Assembly (NCBI RefSeq): GCF_900460345.1
Contig: NZ_UHHW01000002.1
Location: 1,302,001-1,366,000, forward strand
Direction: 5' to 3'
Length of the DNA: 64,000 nt
Source: Trueperella pyogenes
GTDB taxonomy: Bacteria; Actinomycetota; Actinomycetes; Actinomycetales; Actinomycetaceae
Below the pieces are notes generated by a model, which saw nothing but the letters and a program-made list of their open reading frames with translations, was not told where the DNA came from and ran no database searches. The translations under genes and the position numbers were made by a program. Within the stretch, counting starts at the first letter, position 1. Every line of letters begins with the position of its first letter. This document shows, in pieces, positions 2,980-9,951 of the stretch.

Positions 2980-5316
2980 TTACTCGTCAGTCTCTTCCGA
3001 GTCGCCATCTTCACGAGTGCGGGTGCGACGACGGCGACGCTCGCGCTTCTCGCCCTCTTCACGGCGAGTCCGGCGGCGAGGACGCTCATCCTCATCCTTG
3101 CCGTTGTCCGCAGCCTCGGCCTCAGCAGCGAGTTGCTCTTCGGTCAGGACGGCGTGGAGCGAAAGCTTGCCGCGCTGGTCGATCTCGGCCAACTCCACTT
3201 CGACCTTGTCGCCGACGTTGAGCACGTCCTCGACGGCGTCGATACGCTTACCGCCGACCAGGCGGCGAACCTGCGAAATGTGCAGGAGACCGTCCTTGCC
3301 CGGCGAGAGCGAGATGAAGGCGCCAAACGTCGTCGTCTTGACGACGGTACCAATGAAGCGCTCACCGACCTCCGGCATCTGCGGATTGGCGATCGCATTG
3401 ATCGTCTGGCGAGCTGCCTCCGCCGCTTCGCCGTTGTCAGCGCCGATAAATACGGTGCCGTCGTCCTCGATCGAGATCTCCGCGCCGGTATCTTCCTGGA
3501 TCTGGTTGATCATCTTGCCCTTCGGGCCGATGACTTCGCCGATCTTGTCAACCGGGATCTTGACGGAGATGATACGCGGAGCGGTTGGCGCCATCTCCTC
3601 CGGTGCCGGTGCGGCTTCCTCGATGAGATCGAGGATCGCAAGGCGAGCCTCGTGCGCCTGGGTCAGAGCCTGGGCGAGGACCGCGGCCGGAATGCCGTCG
3701 AGCTTGGTGTCCAGTTGAAGAGCCGTGACCATATCGCGAGTGCCTGCGACCTTGAAGTCCATGTCACCGAGGGCATCCTCGGCACCGAGGATGTCGGTCA
3801 GAGCCACGTAGCGCTGCTCGCCTTCGACTTCACCAGAGATGAGACCCATGGCGATGCCCGCGACCGGAGCCTTGAGCGGAACTCCAGCGTTGAGAAGCGA
3901 CAAGGTCGATGCACACACCGAGCCCATCGACGTCGAGCCATTCGAACCGAAGGCCTCGGAGACCTGGCGGATCGCGTACGGGAACTCCTCGCGCGAAGGC
4001 AGGACCGGCACCAGGGCGCGCTCGGCCAGCATACCGTGGCCGATCTCGCGGCGCTTGGGCGAGCCTACGCGGCCCGTCTCGCCGGTCGAATACGGCGGGA
4101 AGTTGTAGTGGTGCATGTAGCGCTTGGCCGTGACGGGCGAGAGATTATCGAGCTGCTGCTCCATCTTGAGCATATTCAGGGTGGTCACGCCCATAATCTG
4201 GGTCTCGCCACGCTGGAACAAAGCCGAACCGTGTACGCGCGGAAGAACCTCAGTTTCGGCGGTGATGGTACGGATCTGAGCCGGGGCACGGCCATCCATA
4301 CGCACGCCCTCGGTCAGGACGCGGTAACGCATCTCCTGCTTCCAGTGCGCGTTGAGCGCGAGGGCCAGCGCCTGCTCACGATCTTCAAACTTCTCGGAAA
4401 GCTCCTCAACAATCGTCTCAGTGAGCTCGCTTAGAGCGTCATCGCGCTCGTGCTTGTCAACGATGCCCCACAACGCCTCGAAACGGCCGTTGATCTGCGC
4501 ACCGACGGCCTCGTACTCCTCATCCTCGTAGGGGAGGAAGCGTGGGAGGTCGGCAGGCTCCTTGCCAGCTTGCTCCGCGAGCGCAAGCTGAGCCTCGCAC
4601 AGGGTACGGATGAAAGGTTTAGCAGCCTCAAGTCCCTCAGCAACAGTGGCTTCGGTCGGCTTCGTGCCGCCCTTTTCCACGTTAGCCATGGCCTCGTCGC
4701 CAGCCTCCGCCTCGACCATCATGACGGCGATATCGTCGCCGACCATGCGGCCAGCAACCACCATAATGAAGGTGGCATCCGGCAACTCGGAGTAACGTGG
4801 GAAGGCGACCCACTGGCCATCAATCAGAGCCAGGCGGACAGCACCAACCGGGCCAGAGAAAGGCAAGCCGGAAAGCTGAGTCGACATCGAAGCCGCATTC
4901 ATCGCGACGACGTCGTAGGCATCATCCGGGTGGATGGTCAGAACCGTGGCAACGATCTGAACCTCATTGCGCAGCCCCTTGGCAAATGCCGGGCGCAGCG
5001 GACGGTCGATCAGGCGGCACGCGAGGATCGCATCGGTAGACGGACGGCCTTCGCGGCGGAAGAACGAGCCTGGGATGCGGCCAGCGGCGTACTGGCGCTC
5101 TTCGACGTCGACAGTCAGCGGGAAGAAGTCGAAGTGCTCCTTAGGCTGCGAAGAGACGGCGGTGGCGGACAGGATCGTCGTCTCGCCGTCAAGGTAAGCG
5201 AGTGCCGAGCCGGCGGCTTGGCGGGCAAGTAGGCCGGTCTCGAAGCGAATAGTGCGGGTGCCGAACTTACCGTTGTCAATAACGGCTTCAGCATATTTAA
5301 CGTCTGGACCCTCCAT
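2980..5316 (-). CDS. pnp: Polyribonucleotide nucleotidyltransferase (PNPase)
   Basis: PNPase degrades RNA 3' to 5' by phosphorolysis. The actinobacterial enzyme has also been described as a guanosine pentaphosphate synthetase. The 778 residues show two RNase PH-like domains (about 10-150 and 340-560, with the conserved [13 protein letters not shown] stretch), a KH domain ([12 protein letters not shown], about 600), an S1 domain ([15 protein letters not shown] to about 720) and a C-terminal Arg/Glu-rich tail typical of actinobacteria. The ATG at 5316 follows AAGGAG. It lies downstream of rpsO with terminator-like hairpins between, the common rpsO-pnp arrangement in which pnp can have its own promoter or be reached by read-through. 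Confidence 0.98.
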
Positions 5317-5417
5317 GGATCTCCTTTTCTTCTGCCCCGCGGCCTTCGATTGTCATTAACGCTTGAAGCCAAGCGGTAACCACAACCGAGGACCGACGGG
5401 AGTTACTTCTACAAGCC

Positions 5418-5437
5418 GTATTCCAACTGTGGAATAC
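5418..5437 (-). promoter_or_regulatory. Small hairpin in the pnp leader
   Basis: Arms GTATTCCA and TGGAATAC (8 bp, loop ACTG) lie between the rpsO terminator and pnp. In enterobacteria the rpsO-pnp leader carries RNase III-cut hairpins that control pnp. Whether this one has such a role is inference. Confidence 0.3.
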
Positions 5438-5441
5438 GAAC

Positions 5442-5471
5442 AATCGGCTCGCTCCATGTGAGCGAGCCGAT
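5442..5471 (-). terminator. rpsO terminator
   Basis: ATCGGCTCGCT and AGCGAGCCGAT pair perfectly around a loop of about 7 bases just after the rpsO stop. The run after the stem on the minus strand is only moderately T-rich, so some read-through into pnp is expected. Confidence 0.75.
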
Positions 5472-5479
5472 CGCGGCGT

Positions 5480-5749
5480 CTAGCGGCGAAGGCCGAGACG
5501 CTTAATCAACGAACGGTAACGCTCGATGTCTTCGTTCTGAAGATAAGAAAGAAGACGCTTGCGCTTACCGATGAGGAGCATCAGGCCACGGCGCGAATGG
5601 TGATCGTGCTTGTGCGTGCGGAAGTGCTCCGTGAGCTCAGAAATACGAGCCGAAAGCAGTGCAACCTGCACCTCAGGAGAGCCCGTATCGCCCTCGTGAG
5701 TCGCGTATTCCTTAATGATTTCGTCCTTACGCTCTTTAGACAGAGCCAT
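5480..5749 (-). CDS. rpsO: 30S ribosomal protein S15
   Basis: 89 residues, the usual S15 length. Conserved features include the N-terminal [24 protein letters not shown] region and the [18 protein letters not shown] segment that contacts 16S rRNA helix 22. The ATG at 5749 is preceded by AGAAGGAGAA. S15 binds the central domain of 16S rRNA early in assembly and represses its own mRNA in several bacteria. First gene of the rpsO-pnp pair. Confidence 0.98.
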
Positions 5750-6119
5750 ACGATTCTCCTTCTACTCGTTGCGCGGAGCCTGGGGCCTGTTCTCCCAAGC
5801 GATGACGCTCCGCGGCCGATCTAACGGCTTAGCCATTCTAACATGGCGCTTCATACCGGCCGGAAACTACAAGGTGAGATACGACGCTAATTTTCGCAAA
5901 ATGAGCATCGCGCCTCCCAGATACTCGTCGCGGGGCAGGGCCCAATCGATGCCTTAGCTCTACCGCTCACCGATCGTTGATCGCCCGATTTGCACTGCGA
6001 CGCCGGAATATTACCCAACAAATCATACAAAACAGGCACAATGCGCATACTTCCGAGATACTATAGATGGTGTCAAGCAAAAATGCTTGACATCATCTAC
6101 GCACAACAGAGTGAAGACG
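5750..6119. other. Divergent intergenic region between rpsO and the secreted-peptide gene
   Basis: About 370 bases without a gene. The left part should hold the rpsO promoter (minus strand) and the right part the promoter of the plus-strand peptide operon. A TACTAT hexamer at 6059-6064 could be a -10 box, followed at once by the dyad at 6066-6097. Several short open frames here have no ribosome site and no protein-like character. Confidence 0.5.
6066..6097 (+). promoter_or_regulatory. Near-perfect dyad upstream of the peptide gene (operator or attenuator)
   Basis: GATGGTGTCAAGCA (6066-6079), loop AAAA, then TGCTTGACATCATC (6084-6097): a 14-bp inverted repeat with a single G-T wobble. It sits between a possible -10 box (TACTAT, 6059) and the peptide start codon at 6120. 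No T-run follows, so a protein-binding operator or an mRNA leader hairpin is more likely than a terminator. Confidence 0.5.
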
Positions 6120-6350
6120 ATGAAAAATAGCCATCCGTGGAGGATCGCCAGTACTCTCCTCGCGGCGATCGCGCTTTCTGCCTCGATAGCCATGCCCGCC
6201 TACGCTGGCCAGGGTTACCGAGGAACTACACCTTTCGGTTGCCAAGCATATATAAACGGGCGTAGCGCCTGGACTGACTGCACCCCCGCACGGACAAGCG
6301 GTTATATCCACACTAAAGCTTGGTGTACGACCCAACCGTCTAAGGAGTAG
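6120..6350 (+). CDS. Small secreted Cys-containing pre-peptide (bacteriocin-like candidate)
   Basis: 76 residues from the ATG at 6120; an earlier in-frame TTG at 6087 lies inside the dyad and is unlikely. The start MKNSHPWRIASTLLAAIALS is a classic Sec signal peptide, with a signal peptidase I site AYA/GQG after residue 29. The predicted mature peptide has 47 residues, is rich in Gly, Thr, Tyr and Trp, mildly basic, and has three Cys (mature positions 12, 25 and 40). It does not match lactococcin 972 (no such His/Ser-rich motif), class IIa pediocin (no YGNGV) or a double-glycine leader. The ribosome site of the next gene overlaps its 3' end, so the two are coupled. Role inferred from context only: an exported peptide served by the ABC genes. 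Confidence 0.65.
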   Translation: MKNSHPWRIASTLLAAIALSASIAMPAYAGQGYRGTTPFGCQAYINGRSAWTDCTPARTSGYIHTKAWCTTQPSKE

Positions 6351-6354
6351 GTCC

Positions 6355-7614
6355 ATGCGTCACGTCGTCCGCAAGCAGCATCTCATCCATACGGGAGTAA
6401 TAACCCTTGCGTGGTTTGCCATGCTTATTTTACTTTTCGACCCTTGGATGAATGGATATCACGGTGTTGGCGGTTCACTCTGGGGAGCAGGTGCGTATCT
6501 CAGTGCGTTAATCGCTGCTCTCGCATTCCTCAACCATAGAAAAACTCTATGTATCTACCAAAGTGTCAACGCTGTAGCACCACGCAAGTACATCTATCTT
6601 CGATATTTTTCAGTTGATCTACTCTCGTTAAACGTCATTCCCTTCCTCATCCCCGCAACGAGCATCACGCTTGCATCCACAATAATGGCCGGCAGAGGAT
6701 ACCTTGTCTGGCAATACTTCCTTCTCGTCCCGTTATTCCTCACCCTTGCCATCCTCATCGGTTGGGTTAGTGCCTACCTATTTGCTCATATTGCCGTTGG
6801 CGTCGTCTTTTCGGGCCTATTTTCCCTTTTCATCTCCTTCTACCTCATTCAAAGCGCTGTTGAGTCGAACGTCTGGACCCGATTCGACTGGTCCGCCTTC
6901 ACTCAACTGCTTGCTGCCATCGTGCTCATCGCCGGAGGAATCCTCGCGTGCCGCCGGGTGAAGCAGACAAGAATCGCCGCTCCCCTCGCTTGGGGATCTC
7001 TATTCGCCGTCGTCGCATATGTATGGCTAAGTGGTTACGCGAACCTACAGACTCTTCCTCGAACCGCAGACATCCAGCCCTCCTGCGCCGAGAGTGGACC
7101 AGATACCGTGTGCGTGTGGCCTGAGGACGCTTACAAATTACCCACACTCACTCGGTACGCAGCCCGTGCCCGTAGTCTTGATAGCGCTCTCGGTACCAAA
7201 GCCACTCCTGCCCTTTTTGCCGAGCCGCATATCCCACAGGTTATGACGAATCTTGACCGCGACGGCTACTACCAAGGAAGTCGACGTTTCTATCAAATTC
7301 ATCCCTTCGGCGCCGAACCGAGTAACTGGGCGGGCGCTCGCGGGTTCGTTTTTACCGATTTCCTCATATGCGACGAGTCCGCGCGCCAGCTACCCGAGGC
7401 AGAAAGAACGGCGAACACTTTCATCATCTTGGATCTCCTCACCAGTTGGATTTATGGAGATATCGCCTATAGCGGATACTCGAGTGAAAGTAGCCAAAAC
7501 GATGCACAAGCCATTGGCCACCGATTAGCCAAGCTCTCCCCCGATGACCAGCTCACGCAGCTGTCGCACATTACCGACCACTTTATTCGTACCTGCGAGG
7601 TATCCAATGACTAG
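6355..7614 (+). CDS. Polytopic membrane protein of the peptide/ABC operon
   Basis: 419 residues. About seven hydrophobic segments lie in the first 235 residues (for example around 12-30, 40-60, 88-110, 118-165, 180-200 and 212-232), followed by a hydrophilic domain of about 185 residues. That domain contains cysteines (PSCAESGPDTVCVW near 240-255, LICDES, RTCEVSND) and probably faces outside. The start ATG follows AAGGAG at 6342-6347, which overlaps the end of the peptide gene. It overlaps the ATPase gene by 8 bases. I do not recognise a family. By position it may be an ABC-2-type permease subunit with an external domain, a processing or anchoring partner, or an immunity protein for the peptide. 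Confidence 0.7.
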   Translation: MRHVVRKQHLIHTGVITLAWFAMLILLFDPWMNGYHGVGGSLWGAGAYLSALIAALAFLNHRKTLCIYQSVNAVAPRKYIYLRYFSVDLLSLNVIPFLIPATSITLASTIMAGRGYLVWQYFLLVPLFLTLAILIGWVSAYLFAHIAVGVVFSGLFSLFISFYLIQSAVESNVWTRFDWSAFTQLLAAIVLIAGGILACRRVKQTRIAAPLAWGSLFAVVAYVWLSGYANLQTLPRTADIQPSCAESGPDTVCVWPEDAYKLPTLTRYAARARSLDSALGTKATPALFAEPHIPQVMTNLDRDGYYQGSRRFYQIHPFGAEPSNWAGARGFVFTDFLICDESARQLPEAERTANTFIILDLLTSWIYGDIAYSGYSSESSQNDAQAIGHRLAKLSPDDQLTQLSHITDHFIRTCEVSND

Positions 7615-8335
7615 CTACCCGATGTCAATTAATGCCAGCAATCTTAGCCAAGGATACGGGCGAGCGGAAGTTCTACATAACCTATCTTTTTCTCTCGAAG
7701 GCCCCGGAATAGTTGGGTTACTTGGACCGAACGGGGCGGGAAAATCTACGCTGATCAAGACGCTCATCACCCAATACGCACCCCGCAGCGGAGATTTGCA
7801 CGTACTAGGCACAGACGTGCACGACAAGAAAGCCGTACGCACACTACGCCAACAGCTTGGCTACTTGCCACAAAATCATCAAGCCGATAAGTCGTTCACT
7901 GCCTACGAATTCATCTCCTACGCCCTCTGGATGCGCGAATACGATAGTGCACTCATTGCCGCTGCCACGACCGACGCACTCGCAAAAGTAGGACTTGAAC
8001 AAGACGCCCACACAAAGCTTTCCAAGTTCTCGGGCGGGATGTATCAGCGCGCCGGAATTGCGGCCGCAATTGCGGGTGAGCCTTCAATCATCGTTCTCGA
8101 TGAACCCACATCCGGGCTCGATCCCCAACAGCGTACTCAGTTTCGTCAGGTGTTAAGATCGCTCACCGATTCCCTGTGCATACTCAGCACACATTTGGTG
8201 GAAGATGTGCATGTGCTAGCTGATACCCTCCTCGTCTTAAACGACGGTATCGTCACCTATTGTGGGCCTACGCAGTTCCCCGAATCGGCGTCGATCGAAG
8301 ACCTGGAAGCACACTATGCGGCACTCTTGGGATAG
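7607..8335 (+). CDS. ABC transporter ATP-binding protein
   Basis: 242 residues with a complete nucleotide-binding domain: Walker A GPNGAGKST, Q-loop near LGYLPQ, signature FSGGMYQR, Walker B IIVLDEP and switch His in LSTHL. This is the ABC-2 exporter type (drug, bacteriocin and immunity transporters). The ATG at 7607 is chosen because GAGG lies 6-7 bases upstream and it overlaps the preceding stop by 8 bases; an upstream in-frame start at 7544 would put extra unrelated residues in front. It should energise the two membrane proteins of the operon. Confidence 0.9.
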   Translation: MTSYPMSINASNLSQGYGRAEVLHNLSFSLEGPGIVGLLGPNGAGKSTLIKTLITQYAPRSGDLHVLGTDVHDKKAVRTLRQQLGYLPQNHQADKSFTAYEFISYALWMREYDSALIAAATTDALAKVGLEQDAHTKLSKFSGGMYQRAGIAAAIAGEPSIIVLDEPTSGLDPQQRTQFRQVLRSLTDSLCILSTHLVEDVHVLADTLLVLNDGIVTYCGPTQFPESASIEDLEAHYAALLG

Positions 8336-8945
8336 CACAGCTGCGCCGTTTCCTCCCGGTGCCCTGTTTCTGCAGGCCCGGCGCGCGCGTCTTCTGGCGC
8401 TCCTCATCGTCGGCGCGACTGCCCTCTTCTTCGCACTGATCCCGGTCTCCTACGGGATACCTCCGCTCAACAATGTCAGAGAGACACCGGTTTACCGCGT
8501 GCTGCCAGCCATTCTCGGGACGTTGTGCGCAGCCAGCGTCAATCCTGTCGGGTCTGATCAAGAGCTTCTGCGCGGTCGCCGCGCTCGCCGCCTGCGCAGC
8601 TACCTGCCTTTCTCCTTTTTGCTCCTCGCTGTGCTCAGTATCTTCGTCGCCAGTCTGATCTTTTCTTTTGTTTACCCAGACCAGGAGGTACCCAGGGTCG
8701 TCGCACCAATGGTGACGAGTACGGTTATTTTTACCGCCATAGGGATAATCTCAGCCTGTTACTTATCGGGAGCGTGGCAAGTTCTCCCTACAGCAATTGT
8801 TTTCCTTGCACTCGTCGGCTTTGGATTTCGCACTTTTATGCGTCCGTACGCGTGGAATATTTTCTTCCACGTATCGGCACCTATTGTGCTGGCAGCATGT
8901 GTGCTAAGCGCATTGGCCTTCCTGGCACTCAGGCATAAGTACTAA
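8316..8945 (+). CDS. ABC transporter permease, six-helix, small
   Basis: 209 residues from ATG 8316, overlapping the ATPase gene by 20 bases. After a short N-terminal arm there are six hydrophobic segments (about 25-48, 60-80, 98-122, 132-156, 160-180 and 188-207) with few charged residues between them, the layout of a minimal ABC-2 permease. No close family is recognised by eye. Its coupling to the ATPase gene makes it the probable membrane partner. It ends just before the converging ribF gene, with no strong terminator between them. Confidence 0.75.
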   Translation: MRHSWDSTAAPFPPGALFLQARRARLLALLIVGATALFFALIPVSYGIPPLNNVRETPVYRVLPAILGTLCAASVNPVGSDQELLRGRRARRLRSYLPFSFLLLAVLSIFVASLIFSFVYPDQEVPRVVAPMVTSTVIFTAIGIISACYLSGAWQVLPTAIVFLALVGFGFRTFMRPYAWNIFFHVSAPIVLAACVLSALAFLALRHKY

Positions 8946-8967: not shown

Positions 8968-9951
8968 TTAACGCGCTGTCACGTCCTGCGGATTTACTCG
9001 GTAAGAGACTGGCACACCGAGGATCTCCGCAGTCCGCCGCAGGTCTTCATCCATCTGCGCTTGCAGCTGTTCGACCGATTCCATCTTCATCATGGGACGC
9101 ACGTAATCGACGAAGTCGATTGCGATCTCCTCCCCGTAGAGGTTGAGATCGCTCCGTCCAAGGACGTGCGCCTCAACCGTTCGCACGTCGCCATCGAATT
9201 GCGGGTTCGTGCCGATCGAAATCGCTGCCGGAAGGTGAACGGTTGCTGTGGAGTTAGGCACCCTTTGGACTACCCAGCCTGCATAGACGCCGTCGCGCGG
9301 AACTTCCCCGACGCCGGCGCCGGGCAGGTTGGCAGTCGGAAAGCCGAGTTCACGCCCGCGCTTGAAGCCGTGCTCAACGACCCCGCGCAACCGGTGCGGG
9401 CGCCCGAGAATCTTGGCTGCCTTGCGCACGTTGCCCGCGTCGAGTAGCTCGCGAATCCACGTCGAGGAATACCGCCGCCCGGAAGCTCCGCCGAGATCGT
9501 CGATAAGAGTCACGTCTAGCTTGGCCCTCCCATACTCGAGGAGGAACCTACCGTCTCCCGCGTTGTCCTTGCCGTAGCGCACGTCTTCACCGACCACAAC
9601 CGCAACCGCCGCAAGCTTGCCGATCAGCTCCTCATCGATAAACGCCTCGGGCGTGGTCAATGCGTAGTCGAGGTCGTACTGCTGCACGACGACGGCGTCC
9701 AACCCCGCTGCTTCCAAGAGGTCGAGGCGATCTTCGAGGGTGGAGATCAGCGGCAGGTCGACGTCAGGTCGATGGACGTGGCTTGGGTGCGGATCGAATG
9801 TAAGCCCGACGGAGACCACACCGCGTTGGGCACCCTGGCGCACAGTTTCGGCGAGAATCGCGTGGTGACCACGATGGACGCCGTCAAAAATTCCGATCGT
9901 CACAACGGACGGGCCGAGGTTGTAATCCTCGGCCGAGTGAAAAACCTTCAT
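8968..9951 (-). CDS. ribF: Bifunctional riboflavin kinase / FAD synthetase
   Basis: RibF phosphorylates riboflavin to FMN and adenylates FMN to FAD. The N-terminal nucleotidyltransferase domain shows IGIFDGVHRGHHAIL (GxxHxGH class) and a STWIRELL stretch near 165; the C-terminal kinase domain shows GRELGFPTANL and the expected FDG/VEAHVLGRSDLNLYGEEI region. 327 residues is the usual length. Its ATG at 9951 directly abuts the stop codon of a small Gly/His-rich gene, so translation is probably coupled. In related genomes ribF lies between truB and rpsO; here an accessory block separates it from truB. Confidence 0.97.
   Translation of the reverse strand: MKVFHSAEDYNLGPSVVTIGIFDGVHRGHHAILAETVRQGAQRGVVSVGLTFDPHPSHVHRPDVDLPLISTLEDRLDLLEAAGLDAVVVQQYDLDYALTTPEAFIDEELIGKLAAVAVVVGEDVRYGKDNAGDGRFLLEYGRAKLDVTLIDDLGGASGRRYSSTWIRELLDAGNVRKAAKILGRPHRLRGVVEHGFKRGRELGFPTANLPGAGVGEVPRDGVYAGWVVQRVPNSTATVHLPAAISIGTNPQFDGDVRTVEAHVLGRSDLNLYGEEIAIDFVDYVRPMMKMESVEQLQAQMDEDLRRTAEILGVPVSYRVNPQDVTAR

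Follow-up and report, generated by a model that had tools for sequence, protein, structure and literature searches.

What is a four-gene island doing between ribF and rpsO of Trueperella pyogenes, where a gene for a small peptide with a secretion signal is followed by those for a membrane protein, an ATPase of the ATP-binding cassette (ABC) type and a small permease, and does its peptide still work? In the stretch of 64,000 nucleotides analysed here—the window—it appears probable that this cassette is an operon for a bacteriocin and its immunity, of a kind lying outside the curated libraries used, with the peptide truncated by a deletion and the transporter intact. The genes were defined by the positions of open reading frames (ORFs), their translations, crude hydropathy and library scans. 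The pre-peptide, on the plus strand as are all four genes, extends from the ATG at 6120 to the stop at 6348-6350 and has 76 residues with cysteines at positions 41, 54 and 69; its codons 1-29 (6120-6206) specify a hydrophobic signal ending in A-Y-A before a G, leaving 47 residues plus the stop (6207-6350). The first-pass annotation, which had proposed just this pre-peptide, cleavage site and three-cysteine mature part, was borne out by the ORF and its translation, the site being judged by eye and hydropathy and not by a signal-peptide program. The membrane protein of 419 residues (6355-7614), the ATPase of 242 residues (7607-8335) and the permease of 209 residues (8316-8945, ATG at 8316) follow, flanked on the minus strand by rpsO (5480-5749, with pnp beyond) and ribF (8968-9951). 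The placement of the four genes was thus correctly described, the supposedly gapless packing being in fact a 4-nucleotide gap between the peptide and membrane-protein genes, followed by overlaps of 8 (membrane-protein gene and ATPase) and 20 nucleotides (ATPase and permease).

Concerning the peptide, searches of related genomes revealed relatives of 100-107 residues, encoded 5' of the same membrane protein gene. An alignment of eight rows has 20 invariant columns, the window row included, and the common core of the four-cysteine peptides, GYRG...C.AYI...AWT.C....TK.WCT.Q, is present in the window peptide. The window row ends, however, where the other rows continue for ~30 residues with a fourth cysteine (Cys4); once two further distant relatives are added, all four cysteines are found in 9 of 10 rows, Cys4 being missing in the window alone. 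The full-length mature domain with Cys4 is therefore absent, and the window peptide, retaining Cys1-Cys3, is a truncated relative of a four-cysteine family. Seen by eye, the 3' end of its gene runs into the AAGGAG ribosome-binding sequence preceding the next ATG (junction at 6345-6354, plus strand), a place where the relatives possess a separate spacer. The truncation would be explained most simply by the deletion of around one hundred bases or more.

The reading frame is, on the other hand, open, its signal and start are intact and there is no frameshift, which would suit a 76-residue form functional as it is, i.e. a mature peptide of 47 residues whose free cysteine would form a dimer or a link. 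Such a possibility is highly improbable given that the product lacks Cys4 as well as three strands out of the seven in the model of the relative from genome G008, and that the gene terminates on its neighbour's ribosome-binding sequence. The earlier suggestion that the unpaired cysteine could serve a dimer or linkage is accordingly rejected, because the odd number of cysteines follows from the truncation that removed Cys4; a working 76-residue product is likewise not supported, and the window peptide is very probably dead.

In order to find the cassette elsewhere, the peptide was used as a query in 213 genomes of the family (eight matches, six kept), 396 of the order (one match, the window), 394 of the class (four matches, with G000 and G688 kept) and 35 of the family of G688 (two matches), as well as in a contig scan, which gave three loci, G033 among them. 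The ten peptide-bearing genomes are G000, G001, G008, G033, G058, G251, two of Corynebacterium and G688, all found with profiles, together with G825, found with the G688 peptide as the query. Four further matches were dropped: G079 (E 0.004), its DNA resembling, by eye, a piece of an unrelated protein; G015 (E 0.009), where tblastn of the fetched region gave no match; and, by eye, G651 (three places in repeated unrelated ORFs) and G832 (within a longer unrelated ORF). The genes for peptide, membrane protein, ATPase and permease succeed one another in this order in G008, G033, G251, Corynebacterium sp. zg-331, C. oculi and the window, so that the gene neighbourhood is conserved across genomes. 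As for the remaining ones, the permease match in G058 lies ~2.3 kb further on; the peptide start, membrane gene and permease of G001 are out of frame; and in G688 and G825, both from another family of the class, the ATPase directly follows the peptide, succeeded in G825 by proteins of 423 and 229 residues, the stretch examined in G688 having a stop within the membrane frame. An ABC ATPase gene belongs to the cluster in all ten genomes, peptide homologues without the ABC genes—the observation that was to count against the idea of a peptide system—having not been seen among them. It should be mentioned that three of seven operons have inverted repeats between the peptide and membrane-protein genes (L020:7913-7944, L038:7366-7404 and L027:10363-10409), which could tune the ratio of the peptide and transporter transcripts.

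The transporter genes of the window look intact. The 419-residue protein has seven helices by crude hydropathy, and its charge pattern points to an internal N-terminus and an external C-terminal segment of 194 residues containing four cysteines, in agreement with the external domain proposed previously; the permease is there too, although with five helices by the same crude measure instead of the six assigned to it. Between the window and G007, the ratio of nonsynonymous to synonymous substitution rates (dN/dS) is 0.173 for the membrane protein (324 codons), 0.079 for the ATPase and 0.173 for the permease. The transporter genes are thus under purifying selection as averaged since the split from G007, a value that covers more than the time after the truncation. 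The low dN/dS values and the recurrence of the gene order in other genomes show that the grouping of the genes is not due to chance. Over the curated cut-offs, the ATPase alone is named by Pfam (PF00005, E 1.1e-31) and none of the window proteins obtains a specific NCBIfam name. The identity of the window ATPase to those of the G008 cassette, G825 and G220 amounts to 53%, 46% and 39%, respectively; no significant blastp match was found between the window permease and the small permeases of G825 and G220.

The profile of the membrane protein matched 22 of the 213 family genomes at E ≤1e-5, 13 of these at ≤1e-19. Within the 13, the peptide is intact in four (G008, G033, G058 and G251) and broken in two (G000 and G001), and no peptide was found in seven (G003, G006, G007, G009, G012, G036 and G064), it being noted that the membrane gene is at a contig end in G003 and G006 and itself incomplete in G007 and G012. 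G003 shares the site on the rpsO side, with ~230 versus ~530 bases from the last shared base to the membrane gene, and therefore offers no space for a peptide gene. G007, the nearest relative, shares the ribF side; its membrane gene is without the first 95 codons and adjoins an opposite-strand ORF of 360 codons, which we take to be a transposase of the IS110 type. Two transposase-like ORFs, whose types are likewise our assumption, lie beside this shortened gene (L015:3110-4030 and 4401-5483, minus strand). Clusters of the lactococcin 972 type without the peptide are known, according to PMC6120550, and the pattern of loss seen here resembles that of the streptococcins described therein. The window strain is probably an immune non-producer that keeps its transporter against neighbours still making such peptides, and what the window contains is a remnant of the system.

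Nine family genomes matched the membrane protein with a weaker score, and two of the eight regions fetched from them, those of G221 and G220, contain a 112-residue peptide relative directly 5' of the ABC module (L099:6072-6407 and L101:6396-6731, minus strand). Both peptides had gone without a match to the peptide profile in the search of the 213 family genomes. For the mature part of the G221 peptide, none of 1000 shuffles reached the score against G825, G688 or C. oculi, and four did so against G008; for the mature parts of G688 and G825, the corresponding numbers were 0 and 5 against C. oculi and 15 and 26 against G008. According to the alignment, Cys1 and Cys2 are present in the G221 and G220 peptides, Cys3 and Cys4 having been lost together, and this joint loss suggests Cys1-Cys2 and Cys3-Cys4 as the most likely disulfide pairs. 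The window peptide thus has Cys3 without its presumed partner.

With regard to the mechanism, the first gene of the intact relatives would encode a pre-peptide exported by Sec, whose mature domain of ~75-80 residues adopts, in the models, a small beta-sandwich similar to that of lactococcin 972. This fold, acquired outside the cell, would in most members be stapled by two disulfides, likeliest in the above pairing, and the layout, fold and loss pattern suggest the envelope of related bacteria as the peptide's site of action. The remaining three genes would together encode a single ABC exporter, composed of the ATPase, the small permease and the seven-helix subunit, with the external cysteine-containing domain of the last recognising or shedding the peptide and so protecting the producer. 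In the window, the deletion would have removed ~30 C-terminal codons together with the spacer, as a result of which the peptide frame now meets the ribosome-binding sequence in front of the transporter gene, and the transporter may have been retained as a shield against neighbours that still produce such peptides.

Alternatively, the peptide may be secreted for a different purpose—as an adhesin, an enzyme inhibitor, a signal or a ligand sensed by the transporter—and have no antibacterial action, the ABC module then handling the peptide or another compound. The library matches of the peptides would agree with this, none of them reaching its cut-off or concerning bacteriocins: FapA, with E 2.5e-4 and 21.3 of 100 bits, and, in the case of the relative from C. 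oculi, HiPIP, with E 5.9e-4 and 20.5 of 22 bits. Further library matches below cut-off were to ExtJ, NttC and others. Moreover, the peptide is often missing beside the transporters, which may thus have a use of their own. The clustering with the ABC ATPase gene, the lactococcin 972 chains favoured for the modelled fold and the streptococcin-like loss pattern nevertheless speak against another job, which is considered decidedly unlikely.

A few other origins were tried and rejected. As to phages and plasmids, the G008 peptide is unmatched in phage or plasmid records, the membrane protein and the C. oculi peptide are unmatched in plasmids, and the peptide, membrane protein, permease and C. oculi peptide are without a match in PHROGs; one scan of viral_contigs gave no match either. 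As to anti-phage defence, the peptide, membrane protein and permease have no PADLOC match at E 0.001, the matches of the ATPase being to generic ATPase models. The G+C content is 53.8% in the island versus 60.1% in the window. An inverted repeat just 5' of the peptide start (6064-6099; two 16-nucleotide arms, 94% complementary, 4-nucleotide loop) is a candidate operator or hairpin; it is unique within the genome when up to 3 mismatches are allowed, and the eight other genomes of the genus searched contain none. A crude scan gave no promoter, and no Rfam model matched at the gathering thresholds, a single sub-threshold match being judged chance.

Among the closest known systems are the DUF7224 (PF23866) proteins beside ABC ATPases, to which the 419-residue protein bears a distant likeness. 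The 423-residue protein of G825 scores 26.0 bits, just under the cut-off of 27, and 4 of 9 members of the window membrane-protein family match weakly, the window protein itself having no match to the model. At an hhalign probability of 97.3, the G825 protein aligns across 382 columns with the window membrane family, and profile comparison links the two families. A search with DUF7224 gave seven matches among 188 genomes of the class, and in two of them a crude scan found small secreted two-cysteine proteins of the Sec type adjoining the exporter, i.e. a tandem pair in G707 (L110:1778-2242 and 2338-2748) and a single one in G626 (L113:6582-6998, minus strand); these are related mutually, have no Pfam match and exhibit no detectable kinship to the window peptide. 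It is thinkable, as a lead, that secreted proteins of several kinds act as partners of this exporter type. Near a related exporter, G207 encodes a secreted-looking protein of 217 residues with a hydrophobic C-terminal part (L096:6523-7176, minus strand), of which G224 has matches to the two ends alone, side by side (L097:2512-2649).

Taken more broadly, and only tentatively, there may exist in several actinomycete lineages a new bacteriocin family outside the curated libraries, with the lactococcin 972 fold and no detectable kinship, secreted by Sec and stapled by disulfides, for which a three-part DUF7224-like exporter, paired with several unrelated secreted proteins, provides immunity; the window species would then have lost the weapon and kept the shield. 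If true, actinomycetes, Corynebacterium included, would possess an unannotated type of folded, disulfide-containing bacteriocin with its own kind of exporter, the DUF7224-like exporter would be a beacon for finding further such systems, and the window would offer a clear weapon-lost, shield-kept case in which the immunity role is directly testable.

The lantibiotic-protection ABC transporters (TIGR03740) likewise comprise an ATPase and membrane subunits encoded next to a peptide. With that model, the ATPase of the window obtains E 3.5e-35, its 121.7 bits being below the cut-off of 309.75 and exceeded by its scores with other ATPase models. The lactococcin 972 family (PF09683; PDB 2lgn and 9hkj, 'Formosin D') also has a Sec-type signal and a small mature beta-sandwich, the latter being predicted for the present peptides by modelling. 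For the models of two peptide relatives, the top-scoring realigned PDB chains are structures of that family; 2lgn is outside the 50 fold rows of one list and 9hkj outside those of the other, neither being thereby excluded according to the tool's note, and the Ptr ToxA chains in the first Foldseek rows for the second model were given weight solely as a shared beta-sandwich. In the loci of lactococcin 972, too, the peptide gene precedes those for a membrane protein with several helices and for an ABC ATPase, an ATPase-like ORF with a P-loop recognised by eye following in four of six loci fetched from the family. Their membrane protein is, however, a single one of 631-686 residues, in contrast to that of 419 residues plus a separate permease here, and two of their ATPases share 24-28% identity with the window ATPase versus the 53% of the G008 cassette. 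One of their membrane proteins gave no alignment with the window membrane family, and TIGR01654, a model that itself matched weakly one of three such proteins, did not match the window one.

Based on this likeness in plan and modelled fold, the peptides might genuinely belong to the lactococcin 972 family as highly diverged members, homologous beyond the fold. This seems rather unlikely, the transporter being different and the profile signal not rising above shuffles: with the mature-part profile, 109 of 200 (local) and 37 of 200 (global) column-shuffled controls were as good, a further comparison gave 77 of 100, or 49 of 100 when restricted to its four most distant rows, and 2 of 132 sequence pairs reached p 0.01; an earlier profile comparison had aligned the signal peptides alone. 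PF09683 matched none of the peptides scanned, relatives included except those of G251 and Corynebacterium sp. zg-331; PF09683 genes are absent from the window genome and occur in 14 of 151 family genomes. In addition, most members of the present family have four conserved cysteines. The placing of the peptide outside the lactococcin 972 family by profile, with no curated family above cut-off, holds, therefore, and from the proposed likeness to its operons the general plan remains—with the conserved cassette and the modelled fold in its favour, profile kinship and a common transporter not being part of it—so that the cassette, while not filed as a member, works at most like a lactococcin 972 operon.
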